Shown here in pieces: positions 10,599-16,737 of a stretch of DNA of 64,000 bases (its first letter is position 1; every line of letters starts with the position of its first letter). The notes under the pieces were generated by a model. It had not been told where the DNA came from and made no database searches. It worked only from the letters and a program-made list of their open reading frames with translations. This DNA is from an uncultured Desulfosporosinus sp. (GTDB lineage: Bacteria > Bacillota > Desulfitobacteriia > Desulfitobacteriales > Desulfitobacteriaceae): the NCBI GenBank assembly GCA_927405585.1, contig CAKMJS010000011.1, positions 1 to 64,000 of the forward strand, given 5' to 3'. Made by a program: the position numbers and the translations under genes.

Positions 10599-10639
10599 TT
10601 AAGGGCTTTTTTGCATAAACTCTTTTCGAGGTGGTGTAC

Positions 10640-11104
10640 GTGCGTCGAAGAGCAAGTGTATTAGAGTGGATGTGGAATACTGTTCAACGGGGAGAACGCA
10701 AGCTCATCCGGGTTATGGTTTTGGCATCGGTCATACTTTTATTAATGCAATTAAGTGCGATAAGGGATCCGCTTGAATTTTATATGGCTGTCTCAGCACA
10801 GGTCGAAGAGCCTCCTTTAGAACTGCCAGCACTTACCGAAGTGCAAAAGACCTGGCAGTTGAGGTTGAAAGCGACACCGGCTGCTCCGATTCGTGTACTT
10901 CAAAATGGCAAAGTCATCGGTACCTTAGCCAATGGAGAAAAGCAACTAACGGTAGAGTCCGGTCAAGTCCTGTTGGATGGAAGGGGCTTGGCTCAGATCA
11001 TTCAGGTTCAAGTGATTAACAAGGATATCCAATTGGTGGAACCACGCCAGAATCAGATTGTCGTGATCCAGGGGGATATTAAGAGTCTGAGGGTCAGCCC
11101 GTAG
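10640..11104 (+). CDS. Membrane-anchored hypothetical protein
   Basis: This 154-residue protein has a positively charged N-terminus (RRRASV), one transmembrane helix (about residues 26-45, VMVLASVILLLMQLSAI) and an extracytoplasmic beta-rich domain. That domain contains the pattern APIRVLQNGKVIGTLANGEKQLTVESGQVLLDG. I do not recognise the family. The GTG at 10640 is preferred because GAGGTGG lies 5 bp upstream; the GTG at 10631 overlaps that site. Its position just before the aromatic operon promoter suggests no functional link. Confidence 0.6.
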   Translation: MRRRASVLEWMWNTVQRGERKLIRVMVLASVILLLMQLSAIRDPLEFYMAVSAQVEEPPLELPALTEVQKTWQLRLKATPAAPIRVLQNGKVIGTLANGEKQLTVESGQVLLDGRGLAQIIQVQVINKDIQLVEPRQNQIVVIQGDIKSLRVSP

Positions 11105-11121: not shown

Positions 11122-11150
11122 TTGCAAATCAGACGTTGACGTACTATAAT
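11122..11150 (+). promoter_or_regulatory. Promoter of the hutP-like/aro operon
   Basis: TTGCAA (11122-11127) and a consensus TATAAT (11145-11150) are separated by 17 bp. The predicted start near 11157 leaves a leader of about 185 nt before the HutP-like gene. Confidence 0.6.
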
Positions 11151-11251
11151 TCAGTCGTCTATAGTTTTTCATGTCTTTAAAGGAGGGTAGTACGGTAGGA
11201 CGGAAGTAAGCGAAGATTTATATACGGTGGTTATGATTTCGAGTAGCACAA

Positions 11252-11319
11252 AGGCACCAGTCAGGTGTCTTTTCAATCAATTTATCCTATCGTGAGACTC
11301 CCACGTCGACCAGTGGGAG
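11252..11319 (+). promoter_or_regulatory. Structured leader of the hutP-like gene
   Basis: Two hairpins lie in the leader. AGGCACC pairs with GGTGTCT (11252-11270) and is followed by TTTC, resembling a weak terminator. CTCCCAC pairs with GTGGGAG (11298-11319) and ends 7 nt before the AAGGAGGA ribosome site (11327-11334). No T-box core sequence was found. The leader may be an attenuator or a binding site for the encoded regulator, but the evidence is structural only. Confidence 0.4.
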
Positions 11320-11342: not shown

Positions 11343-11771
11343 ATGATGGCACAAAGTAAGAAAATTGCGCTCGCTGCCTTAAAAATGGCTATGACAGAGA
11401 GCCGAGAAGAAGAGGCCCATTTAAAAGAATCTTATCTACGCCAAGGGATAAAGACTGCTGCCGTGGATTACGGTGGAGAGTACGTTAGTTCGATAAGGAA
11501 AATTGTAGAGCGTGCTATCGTCGCCGCTAAACGCGAAGGGGCAATCCAAGAAACACACGGGGATGAAGGCGCTGTAGCCGGTGCAACTCGCGAGGCCTTA
11601 AGTCAAATTATGAATAAAGCTATGGGTTTGAATATTGGTGGTAAGATTGGGATTGCCCGTCAAGATGATCATTTAACCGTGGCAATTTTCTTTGGCATCG
11701 GGCTTTTACATTTAGATGAGGTTGCAGTGGGACTAGGACATCGCGTCGCTCCTAAAGAAATAGGGGGTTAG
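11343..11771 (+). CDS. HutP-family RNA-binding regulator
   Basis: This 142-residue protein matches the HutP family along its length: GGEYVSSIRKIVERAI, EGAVAGATREALSQIM, NIGGKIGIAR and LLHLDEVAVGLGHR. HutP of Bacillus subtilis is a histidine- and Mg-dependent antiterminator that binds UAG-type triplets in RNA. Against my memory of that protein, metal/histidine ligands His73 and His77 align with Gly76 and Gly80 here, while His138 aligns with His133. A nearby His72 could substitute. The ATG at 11343 follows AAGGAGGA. It leads an aromatic amino acid operon (aroH starts 3 bp later), not a histidine operon, so its effector may be an aromatic compound. Confidence 0.85.
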   Translation: MMAQSKKIALAALKMAMTESREEEAHLKESYLRQGIKTAAVDYGGEYVSSIRKIVERAIVAAKREGAIQETHGDEGAVAGATREALSQIMNKAMGLNIGGKIGIARQDDHLTVAIFFGIGLLHLDEVAVGLGHRVAPKEIGG

Positions 11772-11774
11772 CAT

Positions 11775-12149
11775 ATGGTTCGAGGAATTCGAGGTGCGAC
11801 TACAGTCGACAATAATGATGCCGTTGAGATAAGAGAAGCGACCCAAGAACTTTTACAAATGATTCTAGCTGAGAATGCGTTAAGCACAGAAGACTTGGTT
11901 AGTGCCATATTTACAGTTACGCCAGATTTAAATGCCGATTTTCCTGCCTCAAGTGCTCGCGCGATTGGCTGGGAGTTGGTACCGCTGCTTTGTGCTACAG
12001 AAATCCCAGTGCCGAGTGGTCTCACTCACTGCATTCGTGTGCTGTTACACGCCAACACTACACATAGCCAATCGGAAATAAAGCACGTTTTTTTGCGTAA
12101 TGCCCAAGCTTTACGCAAGGATTTAGTGAGGCTGGATCTTAAGAATTAG
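11775..12149 (+). CDS. aroH: Chorismate mutase, AroH class
   Basis: This enzyme converts chorismate to prephenate, the branch step to phenylalanine and tyrosine. The 124 residues align well with the B. subtilis AroH fold. They start with VRGIRGATTV, in which Arg6 corresponds to catalytic Arg7. Cys73, Glu76 and Arg88 correspond to Cys75, Glu78 and Arg90 of that enzyme. SGLTHCIRVLLH and IKHVFLRNAQALRKDL are also typical. The gene begins 3 bp after the HutP-like gene, so the two are coupled. It precedes a DAHP synthase, with the rest of the branch downstream. Confidence 0.93.
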   Translation: MVRGIRGATTVDNNDAVEIREATQELLQMILAENALSTEDLVSAIFTVTPDLNADFPASSARAIGWELVPLLCATEIPVPSGLTHCIRVLLHANTTHSQSEIKHVFLRNAQALRKDLVRLDLKN

Positions 12150-12199
12150 TGATCAACTGAGTAGAGAACGTAGGATGAACTGAGGAAGAAGGGAACACG

Positions 12200-13018
12200 G
12201 TGAAGCTAATCGCTCGACGAAGGGATGAACAACAAGAAACCACTGCGGTTCGAGTGGGAGATGTTATCATTGGTGGTCCTGAATTGGTGGTGGTTGCCGG
12301 TCCATGTGCCATTGAAAGCTATGAACAATTATTAAGTACAGCTCTAGAAATTAAACGTCTCGGTGCCACCATGCTTCGAGGTGGGGCGTATAAGCCTAGG
12401 ACCTCTCCCTACTCTTTTCGTGGAAAAGGGGAGCTTGGCTTGGAAATGTTGTCCAGGATTAAGGAGTTGACCGGACTTCCTGTAGTTACAGAGGTCATGG
12501 ATGCACGGGATATCGAACGGATTGCGGATGTTGCCGACATGTTTCAAATAGGGTCACGGAATATGCAGAATTACACTCTCTTATCTGAACTTGGGAAAAC
12601 CAAGCGACCTGTATTGCTAAAACGAGGTTTGGCTGCAACTCTTGAGGAATGGATTTATGCCGCTGAGTATATAATGTCAGAAGGAAATGACCAAGTCGTC
12701 TTATGTGAACGAGGCATTCGGACCTTTGAGACGTATACCCGAAACACCGTGGATATTACTGCAATCCCAGCCTTAAAAGAACTAACCCATCTTCCTGTTT
12801 TCTTAGATCCAAGCCATGGTACTGGCAGATGGTCATTAGTCAGCCCAGTAGCTCTAGCAGGAGTTGCAGCAGGTGCAGACGGCTTAATGATTGAAGTTCA
12901 CCCGCAGCCGGAGCTCGCGTTAAGTGATGGGAAACAATCCTTGAACTTTGAGCATTTTGCCGACCTGATGGACAAGCTTAGCCCTGTAGCTAAGGCAGTC
13001 GGCCGTAAACTGATTTAA
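12200..13018 (+). CDS. aroF: DAHP synthase, short form without regulatory domain
   Basis: 3-deoxy-7-phosphoheptulonate synthase joins phosphoenolpyruvate and erythrose 4-phosphate in the first shikimate step. The 272-residue type I-beta barrel shows AGPCAIES, GGAYKPRTSPYSFRG, QIGSRNMQN, VLLKRG and DPSHGTG. Only about 30 residues precede the barrel, so the ferredoxin-like feedback domain of the second copy (13471) is missing. The start is GTG at 12200. Having a probably unregulated and a regulated form in the same operon suggests that flux control differs between the two copies. A long leader region follows. Confidence 0.9.
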   Translation: MKLIARRRDEQQETTAVRVGDVIIGGPELVVVAGPCAIESYEQLLSTALEIKRLGATMLRGGAYKPRTSPYSFRGKGELGLEMLSRIKELTGLPVVTEVMDARDIERIADVADMFQIGSRNMQNYTLLSELGKTKRPVLLKRGLAATLEEWIYAAEYIMSEGNDQVVLCERGIRTFETYTRNTVDITAIPALKELTHLPVFLDPSHGTGRWSLVSPVALAGVAAGADGLMIEVHPQPELALSDGKQSLNFEHFADLMDKLSPVAKAVGRKLI

Positions 13019-13246
13019 TCATAAGATAGACCCGAAATTCAATTATGGGGGTTGTGAGGATAACCCATTCTGTGTTAAGATAGTTTATCTTTAGAGTTCA
13101 ATAGTCACGATTCATATCGGTGGTAGAAAGCTAGCTTTGTCAGGCAAAGCTATATGTAGGATGGTGGTCGTGGGGTTCCTATGGGTGCTTCGCGAAGGAC
13201 TCGACTGAGAAAAGTAGGATGGAAGGATGGGGGCGATGAAGAGTCA

Positions 13247-13278
13247 AGGCACCCTCTGTTCGGGGTGCCTTTTTGGGA
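13247..13278 (+). terminator. Terminator or attenuator in aro leader
   Basis: AAGGCACCC and GGGGTGCCTT form a GC-rich stem with a short loop, followed by a run of T residues. It lies between the two DAHP synthase genes, about 190 bp before the second. It may end upstream transcripts or act as an attenuator. Confidence 0.75.
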
Positions 13279-13301
13279 TTAATTTTAGGGCAAAGCTCGA
13301 A

Positions 13302-13386
13302 TAGGGATCGTTGTAGTGATCGTAATAGGAATAGAGAAGGAATTAGGAAGTAATAGGTATAGGTATAGGTATAGGTATAGGTATTG
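13302..13386 (+). repeat. UAG-triplet hexanucleotide tract
   Basis: TAG triplets start at 13302, 13314, 13326, 13332, 13344, 13354, 13360, 13366, 13372 and 13378. The last five form perfect TAGGTA repeats, and the earlier ones sit mostly on the same 6-nt phase. As RNA this is a series of UAG triplets with 3-nt spacers, the kind of site bound by TRAP-like or HutP-like proteins. It ends about 70 nt before the ribosome site of the regulated DAHP synthase. Confidence 0.6.
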
Positions 13387-13470
13387 TAAGTTGTGATGAG
13401 GTAGATTCGGCGTATTCGTTGAGTCCAACAGGGGAAGATAAATGTAGTATGGTAGAAGGGGATGGAAAAA

Positions 13471-14502
13471 ATGATTATAGTATTAAAAATGGGTGCAACA
13501 GCAGAACAGATTGAAGAGGTTTCCACACGATTAACGGATGAGGGCTTCAAGATTCATCTTTCCCAAGGCGTGGAGAAAACGATCATGGGGGCTATTGGGG
13601 ATCGCACGAGAATGAAAGCGCTCGATTTAGAAGCCATGCCTTGGGTAGAAAAAGTCGTGCCGATTTTGGCACCGTATAAATTAGTCAGCAGGGAGTTTCA
13701 TGCTGCGGACAGTATTATTCGTGTGGGCGGACAAGAAATTGGCGGTAATAAGATTCATGTGATGGCAGGGCCTTGTGCTGTCGAGAGTAAAGCGCAAATC
13801 ATGGAAACGGCGCACGCTGTGCGCGAGGCGGGAGCAACTTTTTTGCGCGGGGGTGCCTTCAAACCTCGTACTTCTCCTTACTCTTTCCAAGGCTTAGAGG
13901 AAGAGGGCTTGCGCTATTTGGCAGAAGCGCGTGACGAAACGGGACTTTTAGTAGTCACAGAGGTAATTGATGCGCAGGATGTCTCTCTAGTGGCCCATTA
14001 TTCGGATGTTCTCCAAATAGGCGCTCGGAATATGCAGAACTTTATTCTGCTCAAGCAAGTTGCCAAATGCGGAAAACCAGTCATGCTCAAAAGGGGTCCA
14101 TCCGCAACGTTAGAAGAATGGATGATGGCAGCGGAGTATATCCTGGATGGAGGAAACTACCAGGTGATGTTCTGCGAGCGAGGCATCCGTACCTTTGAGA
14201 GTTATACGCGAAATACGCTCGATCTAAGTATGGTTCCTGCGCTACACGCCCTTTCCCACTTACCAGTCATTGTTGACCCAAGTCACGGAACTGGAAAATG
14301 GCAATTAGTTCATCCCATGGCGAAGGCGGCTCTGGCTGCTGGAGCAGATGGCTTGATCGTGGAGGTTCATCCCCATCCAGAAAAGGCGGTTTCAGACGGT
14401 AAACAGTCTTTAACTCCGGAACGATTCAAAGTGATGATGGCTGATTTGGCAAGGCTCACAACGGCACTCGATCGTCAATTGGGGGAAGTGAGTTCGTGTT
14501 AG
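13471..14502 (+). CDS. aroF: DAHP synthase with N-terminal ferredoxin-like regulatory domain
   Basis: This second 3-deoxy-7-phosphoheptulonate synthase has 343 residues. The first 70 (IIVLKMGATAEQIEEVSTRL and following) form the ferredoxin-like domain that, in Thermotoga-type enzymes, mediates feedback inhibition by tyrosine or phenylalanine. The barrel carries MAGPCAVES, GGAFKPRTSPYSFQG, QIGARNMQN, VMLKRG and DPSHGTG. ATG at 13471 is preferred because AGAAGGGG lies 9 bp upstream and family members start MIIV; ATG 13462 directly abuts that site. It overlaps tyrA by 7 bp. Confidence 0.92.
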   Translation: MIIVLKMGATAEQIEEVSTRLTDEGFKIHLSQGVEKTIMGAIGDRTRMKALDLEAMPWVEKVVPILAPYKLVSREFHAADSIIRVGGQEIGGNKIHVMAGPCAVESKAQIMETAHAVREAGATFLRGGAFKPRTSPYSFQGLEEEGLRYLAEARDETGLLVVTEVIDAQDVSLVAHYSDVLQIGARNMQNFILLKQVAKCGKPVMLKRGPSATLEEWMMAAEYILDGGNYQVMFCERGIRTFESYTRNTLDLSMVPALHALSHLPVIVDPSHGTGKWQLVHPMAKAALAAGADGLIVEVHPHPEKAVSDGKQSLTPERFKVMMADLARLTTALDRQLGEVSSC

Positions 14503-15398
14503 GAGGTCCAGAAGAGATTTTGACCCCTGGATGGACTGGTCATCGTCATCCGAAGGCTTGCATTATAGGTTTAGGACTGATAGGCGGGTCTTGGGCAGGA
14601 GCATTACACCGTTCTGGATGGCAGGTTTGTGCCGTTGACCCGGAGAAGGCCAGTATCGATGAAGCGGTATCCAGGGCATGGATTCAGGCAGGATGGACTG
14701 AAATGCCACAGTTTCTGGAGGTCGATTTGGTTATCCTAGCTCTACCCCTTCAGGCGTTGGCGGAGGGGTATGATCAATTAGTGGGTAGGGTTCCGAAGGG
14801 AACAATCGTGACCGATGTCGGAAGCATTAAGACTGAAATATGTAATAAATCTCTAGCGAATGCCCAAAACGGCTCTAGTGGCTTCTATTTTATAGGCGGT
14901 CACCCTATGACGGGTTCGGAACAGTCCGGGTTTGGTGCTGCAAATCCCACTCTTTTTCGCAATTATCCCTATGTCTTAACTCCTGCAGGCGATTGTCCAC
15001 CCAACGTGGTTCAAAAGCTTGTCGAAGTTATTCAAGGCTTTGGGGCTAAAGTTATATTTCGTGAGCCACGGGACCATGATGTAGAAGTGGCCATGGTCAG
15101 TCATATCCCTCATTTGCTAGCAGTGGCCTTAGCGTTGGCTACGCATGATATATCTCAAGAGGGCGGAGCAGCCTTAGCGTTAGCCGGACGGAGTTTTCGA
15201 GAATTAACGCGTATAGCAGATAGTTCTCCCGTAATGTGGAAAGAGATTATGGTGCGGAATTCCGAGGCAATTCTCGGAGGGCTTAGCCTTTGGGAACATA
15301 GAATCAAGGAATTACGGGATAGCCTTCAGCAGGGAGACGGAGAGGCTATTGCCGATGCCTTTCGAAAGGCTCATATGGTTCGGGGATACATTAATTGA
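14496..15398 (+). CDS. tyrA: Prephenate dehydrogenase
   Basis: This enzyme oxidatively decarboxylates prephenate to 4-hydroxyphenylpyruvate on the tyrosine branch, using NAD(P). An N-terminal Rossmann motif IIGLGLIGGSWAGALH (about residues 23-38) and the signatures VTDVGSIKTEI and FIGGHPMTGSEQSG (about residue 136) identify it. The 300 residues end after the helical dimerisation domain, so the C-terminal ACT domain found in the longer Bacillus enzyme is absent. The GTG start overlaps the upstream DAHP synthase by 7 bp. AroA follows after about 50 bp. Confidence 0.92.
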   Translation: MLGGPEEILTPGWTGHRHPKACIIGLGLIGGSWAGALHRSGWQVCAVDPEKASIDEAVSRAWIQAGWTEMPQFLEVDLVILALPLQALAEGYDQLVGRVPKGTIVTDVGSIKTEICNKSLANAQNGSSGFYFIGGHPMTGSEQSGFGAANPTLFRNYPYVLTPAGDCPPNVVQKLVEVIQGFGAKVIFREPRDHDVEVAMVSHIPHLLAVALALATHDISQEGGAALALAGRSFRELTRIADSSPVMWKEIMVRNSEAILGGLSLWEHRIKELRDSLQQGDGEAIADAFRKAHMVRGYIN

Positions 15399-15450
15399 AT
15401 CGTGAGAAATCGTTATCTAGGGTAGCTAGTGACAAAGGGAGGTTATACCT

Positions 15451-16737
15451 ATGCCGGGCGTGTTCATTAAGCCGGTCTCAGGCGTGGAGGGGGAAATCGA
15501 AGTCCCTGGCGATAAGTCTATTTCTCATCGGGCAGCGCTCCTGGGTGGGATGGCACACGGAGAAACTCACGTTACGAACTTTCTATTAGGCCAGGATTGT
15601 TTAAGCACCCTACGTTGCTTACAGCAACTGGGAGTCTCCTGGGAAAGACAGGGCACGGAGGTTTGGCTTCGTGGTACGGGGATGGAAGCCTGGACGGAGC
15701 CGACGGATGTACTGGATGCGGGTAATTCAGGGACAACCTCGCGGCTGATGCTGGGAGCATTGGCGGGGAGTCCCTTTGCGGTCACCATGAATGGGGATGC
15801 CTCCCTTCGAGCTCGACCCATGCGCCGTGTCACCGATCCTCTGAAGCAAATGGGCGCTCAGATTATGGGACGCCTTGACGGTAATCTATTTCCTCTGACA
15901 ATGGTGGGGGGGCAGTTGCAAGGACAAGCCTTTCGCTCAGCGGTGGCCTCAGCCCAAGTCAAATCGGCCATTATCTTGGCGGGCTTGCGAGCGAGTGGAG
16001 AAACGAGCGTAGAGGAACCAGCGCTTTCTAGGGATCATACTGAGCGAATGCTTAGGGGGTTCGGAGTGGAAGTGCTCAGTGAGAAAAGGTTGGTCAGAGT
16101 GCAAGGGGGAGGTCGCCTGACGGGTCAAGAGGTTTCTGTGCCTGGGGATATTTCGTCAGCTGCTTTCTTCCTGGTCTTAGGTAGTTTGGCTGGACGTGGA
16201 GAGCTGATTTTGCCGAATGTTGGGGTTAATCCAACTCGTACGGGGATATTGGACGCTCTTAGAGCGATGGGTGCGGATATCGAGTTGATCGACATAACGG
16301 AGATCTGTGGTGAGCCTAGAGCAACGCTGCGTGTCCGTCCAAGCAAACTCCAGGGCATTGAAATTGGTGGAGAAATGATCCCGAGACTGATTGACGAAAT
16401 ACCCATTCTGGCGCTAGCCTCCAGCCTTGCCGAAGGTGAAACCGTGATTCGAGAGGCTGCAGAGCTGAGGGTCAAGGAAACTGACCGCATCCGAACGGTG
16501 GCGGAGGGACTCAGCGCTTTGGGCGCTAAGGTTGAAGAACTTCCCGACGGGTTGCGTATCCTTGGACAACCCTCCTTACGCGGGGGGCAGGCGAGTAGTC
16601 AAGGAGATCATCGCTTGGCTATGACCTGGGCCATTGCAGGAATGCTATCGAAGGAAGGGGTCAGCGTGGAAGACATAGCAGCAGCGGATGTATCGTATCC
16701 TGACTTTTTGGACGTGATCAAGAAGGTAGCTCGATGA
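15451..16737 (+). CDS. aroA: EPSP synthase
   Basis: 3-phosphoshikimate 1-carboxyvinyltransferase transfers the enolpyruvyl group of phosphoenolpyruvate to shikimate 3-phosphate. The 428-residue protein begins with PGDKSISHRAALLGGMA (about residues 20-36). It contains DAGNSGTTSRLMLG (about 90) and ends with the ETDRIRTVAEGL and GDHRLAMTWAIAG blocks typical of the family. GGAGG stands just before the ATG. The stop codon overlaps the azlC start (ATGA), so the amino acid transporter genes are translationally coupled to the aromatic operon. Confidence 0.94.
   Translation: MPGVFIKPVSGVEGEIEVPGDKSISHRAALLGGMAHGETHVTNFLLGQDCLSTLRCLQQLGVSWERQGTEVWLRGTGMEAWTEPTDVLDAGNSGTTSRLMLGALAGSPFAVTMNGDASLRARPMRRVTDPLKQMGAQIMGRLDGNLFPLTMVGGQLQGQAFRSAVASAQVKSAIILAGLRASGETSVEEPALSRDHTERMLRGFGVEVLSEKRLVRVQGGGRLTGQEVSVPGDISSAAFFLVLGSLAGRGELILPNVGVNPTRTGILDALRAMGADIELIDITEICGEPRATLRVRPSKLQGIEIGGEMIPRLIDEIPILALASSLAEGETVIREAAELRVKETDRIRTVAEGLSALGAKVEELPDGLRILGQPSLRGGQASSQGDHRLAMTWAIAGMLSKEGVSVEDIAAADVSYPDFLDVIKKVAR

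Follow-up and report, generated by a model that had tools for sequence, protein, structure and literature searches.

Two described systems come closest to the locus analysed here, HutP and TRAP. HutP of Bacillus subtilis is a histidine- and Mg2+-dependent antiterminator of the hut leader, and the histidines of the HALYH motif in classical HutP have a role in metal binding. HutP has so far been studied as the histidine sensor of one operon of Bacillus. TRAP, the product of mtrB, acts by attenuation of the trp genes. The RNA targets bound by Bacillus HutP are NAG repeats clustered in threes (PMC7430163).

The window, i.e., the whole stretch of 64,000 nucleotides of Desulfosporosinus DNA that was analysed, carries a tract of UAG triplets upstream of the DAHP synthase gene aroF2, which a sequence-only reading had compared with the sites of both proteins while naming a simple microsatellite as the alternative. 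We assign a probability of about 0.68 to the joint model in which the tract is a microsatellite, and a HutP-like protein, here called subtype A, binds separate octamer arrays and represses aromatic genes.

The hutP-aro region of the window

Immediately 5' of the hutP leader lies a gene for a protein of 157 aa without Pfam match (10631-11104), an arrangement shared by many congeners. This gene is followed on the plus strand by a putative promoter of Sigma-70 type for the hutP operon, assigned from the sequence (11122..11150; TTGCAA, 17 nt, TATAAT), both boxes of which recur in the hutP leaders of most congeners. The hutP leader contains an array of NAG octamers, GTAGTACG GTAGGACG GAAGTAAG (11187..11210, plus strand), and in the interval between these octamers and hutP the sequence forms a hairpin resembling an intrinsic terminator (AGGCACC AGTCA GGTGTCT TTTC; 11252..11274, plus strand), for which a counterpart is found in most congeners and in other genera. 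The genes that follow on the same strand encode the HutP-like protein of subtype A (11343..11771, start ATGATG at 11343/11346; PF09021, E 5.5e-50), the chorismate mutase AroH (11775..12149; PF07736) and aroF1, a DAHP synthase without N-terminal domain (12200..13018; PF00793).

The aroF2 leader is preceded by a conserved promoter-like stretch, GGGGTTGTGAGGAYAGCCC...TAAGAT (13049-13081), in which an inverted repeat lies over the -35 region, so that an operator is possible there. On the plus strand, the leader itself comprises the hairpin P1 (AGCTTTG/CAAAGCT, 13133..13151), nearly invariant in 23 species by alignment and consensus fold; a single octamer, GTAGGATGG, directly 3' of P1 (13156..13164) and conserved in the leader alignment; the octamer array GTAGGATG GAAGGATG GGGGCGAT (13214..13237), which is the predicted antiterminator strand; and the intrinsic terminator AAGGCACCC TCTGTTC GGGGTGCC TTTTT (13246..13274), drawn from the consensus structure of 23 sequences. 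A further NAG octamer pair, GTAGTATG GTAGAAGG GG, covers the aroF2 ribosome site (13444..13461, plus strand) and is present in the window and in 23/23 congeners, 17-20 nt 5' of the assumed start codon. aroF2 encodes a DAHP synthase with an N-terminal ferredoxin-like domain (13462..14502, plus strand; PF00793, PF18152, NF006421), and its true start is probably the ATG at 13471 (MIIV...). The congener set to which these comparisons refer holds the locus from 23 Desulfosporosinus, with one genome per species. In one of them (G009, L028:3592-4928) a gene for a HisC-like aminotransferase separates the leader from aroF2; the leader is kept with this first gene and the ribosome-site octamers are kept with aroF2.

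Subtype A of the HutP family

By profile and predicted fold, the window protein is a member of the HutP family. The AlphaFold model of subtype A has a pLDDT of 85, and the top ten PDB hits are without exception HutP structures (E 9.8e-9, TM 0.76). Subtype A had no match when its single sequence was searched against solved structures, its profile gave only chance matches to sigma factors, and the NCBIfam HutP equivalog NF002838 did not match it either; the paralogue encoded beside hutH scored 183.7 against NF002838 at a cut-off of 155. In the alignment, the HALYH of this hutH-linked paralogue corresponds to GAVAG in subtype A. The loss of HALYH together with the missing equivalog match suggests that the ligand of subtype A is not histidine.

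Public relatives with 90-92% identity to the window protein are all from Desulfosporosinus. Congener genomes carry up to four genes of the HutP family, usually three, and in the genomes that were opened subtype A adjoins aroH and the aro operon, with the two other paralogues at nif and at hutH. The neighbours of the second paralogue, which we take to be nifI1-nifI2-nifH, and that of the third, classical one, presumably hutH, were recognised by eye. The second paralogue (L159:1780-2403 in G000:C111; L161 in G006) lies directly 5' of nifI1/nifI2/nifH, retains a HALIH motif and is preceded by a terminator-like hairpin of its own. Attenuation of nitrogen fixation genes by this paralogue is a possibility.

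The octamer motif and its distribution

The motif has the consensus NAGDAYGG, or a close variant of it, and tandem copies follow each other at a distance of exactly 8 nt, in many cases accompanied by a third NAG in register. It was counted in 80 public loci encoding subtype-A HutP, where pairs at 8-nt spacing numbered 28 on the hutP strand and 0 on the opposite strand, every other spacing from 3 to 40 yielded only 0-3 pairs, and GTAGKAYGG was found 60 times on the hutP strand and 2 times on the other; these counts are not fully independent because the 80 loci include closely related ones. The third NAG, with 5-nt spacers, is in register at 25/44 unique sites (binomial p ~1e-12). If two mismatches are allowed, the pattern alone is too noisy to define a regulon. 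In four species, the sequence MVRMVG stands at or near the start of a branched-chain-type ABC binding protein (L150:1540-1575, L152, L153, L154), and an octamer-like sequence consequently extends over the start codon; selection there seems to act jointly on the RNA site and the protein sequence.

The phylum was surveyed in 399 genomes, of which 104/228 with subtype A and 14/171 without it carry the tandem octamer (Fisher 3e-17; hand counts from two listings), a co-occurrence that is partly shared ancestry. An exact tandem is missing from several genomes that do carry subtype A (family f3). For gene context, 50 sites were sampled, 36 in subtype-A genomes and 14 in others. An aromatic amino acid gene lies downstream of 24/36 sites with subtype A versus 1/14 without, and the 24 sites precede an aroF2-type DAHP synthase, hutP, tyrA, a TrpX-like ABC transporter or iorA, the last of which, recognised by eye, we take to encode indolepyruvate oxidoreductase. 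The remaining 13/14 sites in genomes without subtype A lie elsewhere, mostly within unrelated coding sequence, and the single exception comes from a genome that is 80% complete. In Desulfosporosinus, octamers are also found 5' of TrpX-like and branched-chain-type ABC transporters, phenylacetate-CoA ligase, a sodium:solute symporter, a DctP transporter and lactate permease; some sites precede genes with no clear aromatic link, namely those for DctP, lactate permease and AMP-ligases.

Subtype A, which lacks the classical histidine-site motif, probably regulates the synthesis, uptake and breakdown of aromatic amino acids via tandem NAGDAYGG. The system probably also spans Desulfosporosinus, Moorella, Pelotomaculum and many related Clostridia. 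It likewise appears probable that it works both by attenuation and at ribosome sites, with TRAP alongside it in some genera and absent in others.

Leader structure and proposed mode of regulation

The consensus fold of the 23 aroF2 leaders retains just two hairpins and leaves the array region unpaired; taken as a whole, the hairpin-rich leader shows no unusual stability (z-score -1.07). A known riboswitch or T-box was rejected, as none of 20 loci had an Rfam match at gathering score and the stretch 11500-15500 of the window gave chance-level hits only. When the second array (AUAG-u-AGG) is set against the terminator segment CCUCUAU in the 23 Desulfosporosinus leaders, 96% of cells pair, compared with 49-68% when the segments are slid; the columns of this antiterminator are nearly invariant and therefore lend it no covariation support. 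Another antiterminator, GGGTGC/GCACCC, drawn from the window species, was discarded, as it fails in about half of the congeners.

Other genera have compact leaders with the order octamer, octamer, CAGGAGG-like segment, about 20 nt and terminator. In these, the segment that follows the octamers shows complementarity to the 5' arm of the terminator with a mean of -9.2 kcal/mol, compared with -7.2 kcal/mol for shuffled sequences (0/200). Swapping the partners between species weakens this complementarity little (68/2000), so that specific pairing is suggested, not proven. Where arrays lie over ribosome sites, they overlap the Shine-Dalgarno sequence, and in some genera such sites lack a terminator altogether (L335, L336).

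From this arrangement, a mode of regulation can be proposed. Subtype A, encoded three genes upstream of aroF2, would bind the NAGDAYGG arrays. Both hutP-aroH-aroF1 and aroF2-tyrA-aroA have a leader in which the array stands 5' of a predicted intrinsic terminator, and the array of the aroF2 leader can pair with the 5' side of the terminator and would thus form the antiterminator strand. Protein bound to the array would free the terminator, and transcription would stop. Translation would be blocked as well by protein bound at the aroF2 ribosome site, since the array there overlaps the Shine-Dalgarno sequence. Both overlaps, with the antiterminator and with the Shine-Dalgarno sequence, point to repression. 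An aromatic amino acid is the likely signal, in view of the genes controlled, and the outcome would be a TRAP-like end-product repression in a genus without TRAP.

The sign of this regulation might also be the reverse, so that the HutP-like protein binds the octamers and prevents termination, thereby activating the genes. Bacillus HutP is such an antiterminator on NAG clusters adjoining a terminator, and the order of array and terminator is the same here (PMC7430163). However, the genes are biosynthetic and the regulator is encoded inside its own operon, the arrays overlap the predicted antiterminator strand, and at the terminator-free ribosome sites mentioned above binding should repress. Activation is therefore considered unlikely.

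Somewhat less likely still is that a different RNA-binding protein, e.g., CsrA, recognises the octamers, or that they belong to a riboswitch, with subtype A as a mere neighbour. CsrA likes GGA and many octamers include AGGA; moreover, as hutP lies inside the aro operon, its proximity could come from co-regulation alone. However, GGA is not required, as GTAGTAYGG is common and is also used at the ribosome site of the window itself, and CsrA is disfavoured because the GGA core is unconserved at the ribosome-site octamers. The unpaired array region, with just two conserved hairpins, and the missing Rfam match argue against a riboswitch. Furthermore, the arrays track subtype A across the phylum, and hutP and the array-bearing gene are found on separate contigs in several genomes (G166, G128, G380). 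We return with this to repression by subtype A as the preferred reading and to the tract, which stands between two of its candidate sites.

The UAG tract upstream of aroF2

The tract is a lineage-specific, A/G-rich spacer with ten TAG triplets (13302..13386, plus strand), which has no counterpart in the spacers of congeners. The triplets start at 13302, 13314, 13326, 13332, 13344, 13354, 13360, 13366, 13372 and 13378, exactly as had been claimed. Its placement was also given correctly, with the terminator upstream (stem 13246-13269, T-run 13270-13274) and the aroF2 ribosome site downstream; the tract lies 3' of the terminator and more than 50 nt 5' of the ribosome site. It has no stable fold (z-score +0.86). 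Tandem Repeats Finder identifies within it a perfect hexanucleotide microsatellite, (ATAGGT)5.3 (13353..13384, plus strand), which with 100% matches and a score of 64 is the top of 17 arrays in the window.

Ten TAG per 85 nt is the maximum over the 64 kb on both strands, the opposite strand reaching at most 7. At least ten TAG per 85 nt occurred in 90/2000 first-order Markov sequences of local composition, or in 20/2000 if the repeat was excluded from the composition, and a perfect run of five hexamers in 0/2000. It is thus the perfect hexamer run that is unusual, and the five TAGs 5' of it correspond roughly to the expectation for an A/G-rich spacer.

Among congeners, the sequences of the aroF2 leader, terminator and ribosome site are conserved and the intervening spacer is not. 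In the 21 Desulfosporosinus species with a measurable spacer, its length from terminator to ribosome site ranges from 17 to 440 nt and its sequence is variable too; the hexamer repeat is found in 0/21, and the TAG density is 0-5.7 per 100 nt versus 7.1 in the window. The (ATAGGT)n run has a single occurrence in its own genome and is also present in G007, G017 and G049, at unrelated places. The 440-nt spacer of G013 (L030) is full of dispersed repeats such as GTAGGATTAGTATCGCC, so that insertions are tolerated at this position.

The microsatellite, offered earlier as the alternative, fits best, since the repeat is absent from congener spacers and is found at unrelated places elsewhere. The tract is most likely a hexanucleotide microsatellite that was expanded in one lineage, within a spacer unconstrained in sequence, and, judged by the same comparison, it is almost certainly no binding array. 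Simple repeats can mimic triplet-array binding sites, which calls for caution. The further suggestion, that UAG-containing sites for the HutP-like protein control aroF2, is well supported at 13156-13164, 13214-13237 and 13444-13461, but not at the tract, where binding of HutP is unlikely because the conserved octamer is missing and the tract is not conserved. There is accordingly little probability that the tract forms an additional low-affinity site of the HutP-like protein which tunes aroF2 translation in this lineage. Its UAG triplets lie near the conserved ribosome-site octamers and the sites of subtype A are NAG arrays; however, its period is 6 and not 8, the GAY-GG part is missing, congeners lack the tract, and it has the form of a simple repeat.

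Bona fide arrays of TRAP type are found in relatives. They consist of 7-11 (G/U)AG units with spacers of mostly 2 nt, and they stand 5' of a terminator and before a gene that, recognised by eye from translations, we take to be trpE. Such arrays with terminators occur in genera other than Desulfosporosinus (L170:2700-2742, L186:2640-2677, L226:4768-4815, L242:4936-4968, L266:5317-5371), directly 3' of hutP-aroH, Moorella and Thermincola being examples. The search for mtrB (PF02081) detected the gene in the B. subtilis control and in 18/83 genomes of the class, all from other genera, and in 0/30 genomes of the genus. That the tract is a TRAP site with 3-nt spacers, as had been proposed, is therefore extremely improbable and TRAP was rejected as a binder: the tract does hold ten UAG triplets, and its 3-nt spacers from 13354 on are inside the 2-3 nt of TRAP, but only five triplets have this regular spacing (period 6) and five are irregular, whereas TRAP takes about 11 (G/U)AG with 2-3 nt spacers, the tract is neither conserved nor, like the trpE-associated arrays of relatives, placed before a terminator, and mtrB is missing from the genus. 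Only a TRAP gene of dissimilar sequence in the genus would reopen this reading.

Comparison with known regulatory systems

The tract itself is ordinary. As in bacterial hexanucleotide microsatellites, it is composed of perfect tandem hexamers, it is non-coding and lineage-specific, and its unit recurs at unrelated places; no difference from them was found.

With TRAP (mtrB) attenuation of the trp genes, the scheme proposed for the octamers shares triplet repeats over antiterminator and ribosome sites. In contrast, TRAP belongs to a different protein family that is absent from the genus, its sites have a period of 5-6 versus 8 for the present octamers, and its target is trpE, whereas the present arrays are located at DAHP synthase, chorismate mutase and transport genes.

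The HutP/hut system of B. subtilis is alike in Pfam family, predicted fold and the NAG clusters beside an intrinsic terminator, and in both cases a small protein is encoded at the head of the operon that it controls or would control. However, the present targets are aromatic amino acid genes and not hut, and the arrays have a period of 8 with a conserved GAY-GG part and also occupy ribosome sites; the spacing is NAG plus 5 nt, compared with the 4 nt given for HutP by the sequence-only reading. Subtype A has neither the paired histidines of HALYH nor a match to the NCBIfam equivalog, and the genomes with subtype A additionally carry a separate, classical HutP beside hutH. The sign is opposed as well, as Bacillus HutP prevents termination and subtype A is proposed to promote it.

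Rfam and the literature searched, with partial coverage, hold no description of a HutP-type regulator of aromatic genes, and as far as checked the system of octamers and subtype A is undescribed. If the proposal holds, a large share of the HutP family would be RNA-level regulators of aromatic amino acid genes in anaerobic Clostridia, using a simple and searchable RNA code, and control of the entry step of the pathway in genera without TRAP would be explained. Compared with HutP of Bacillus, this would be a new case of one protein fold changing both its ligand and its RNA spacing.
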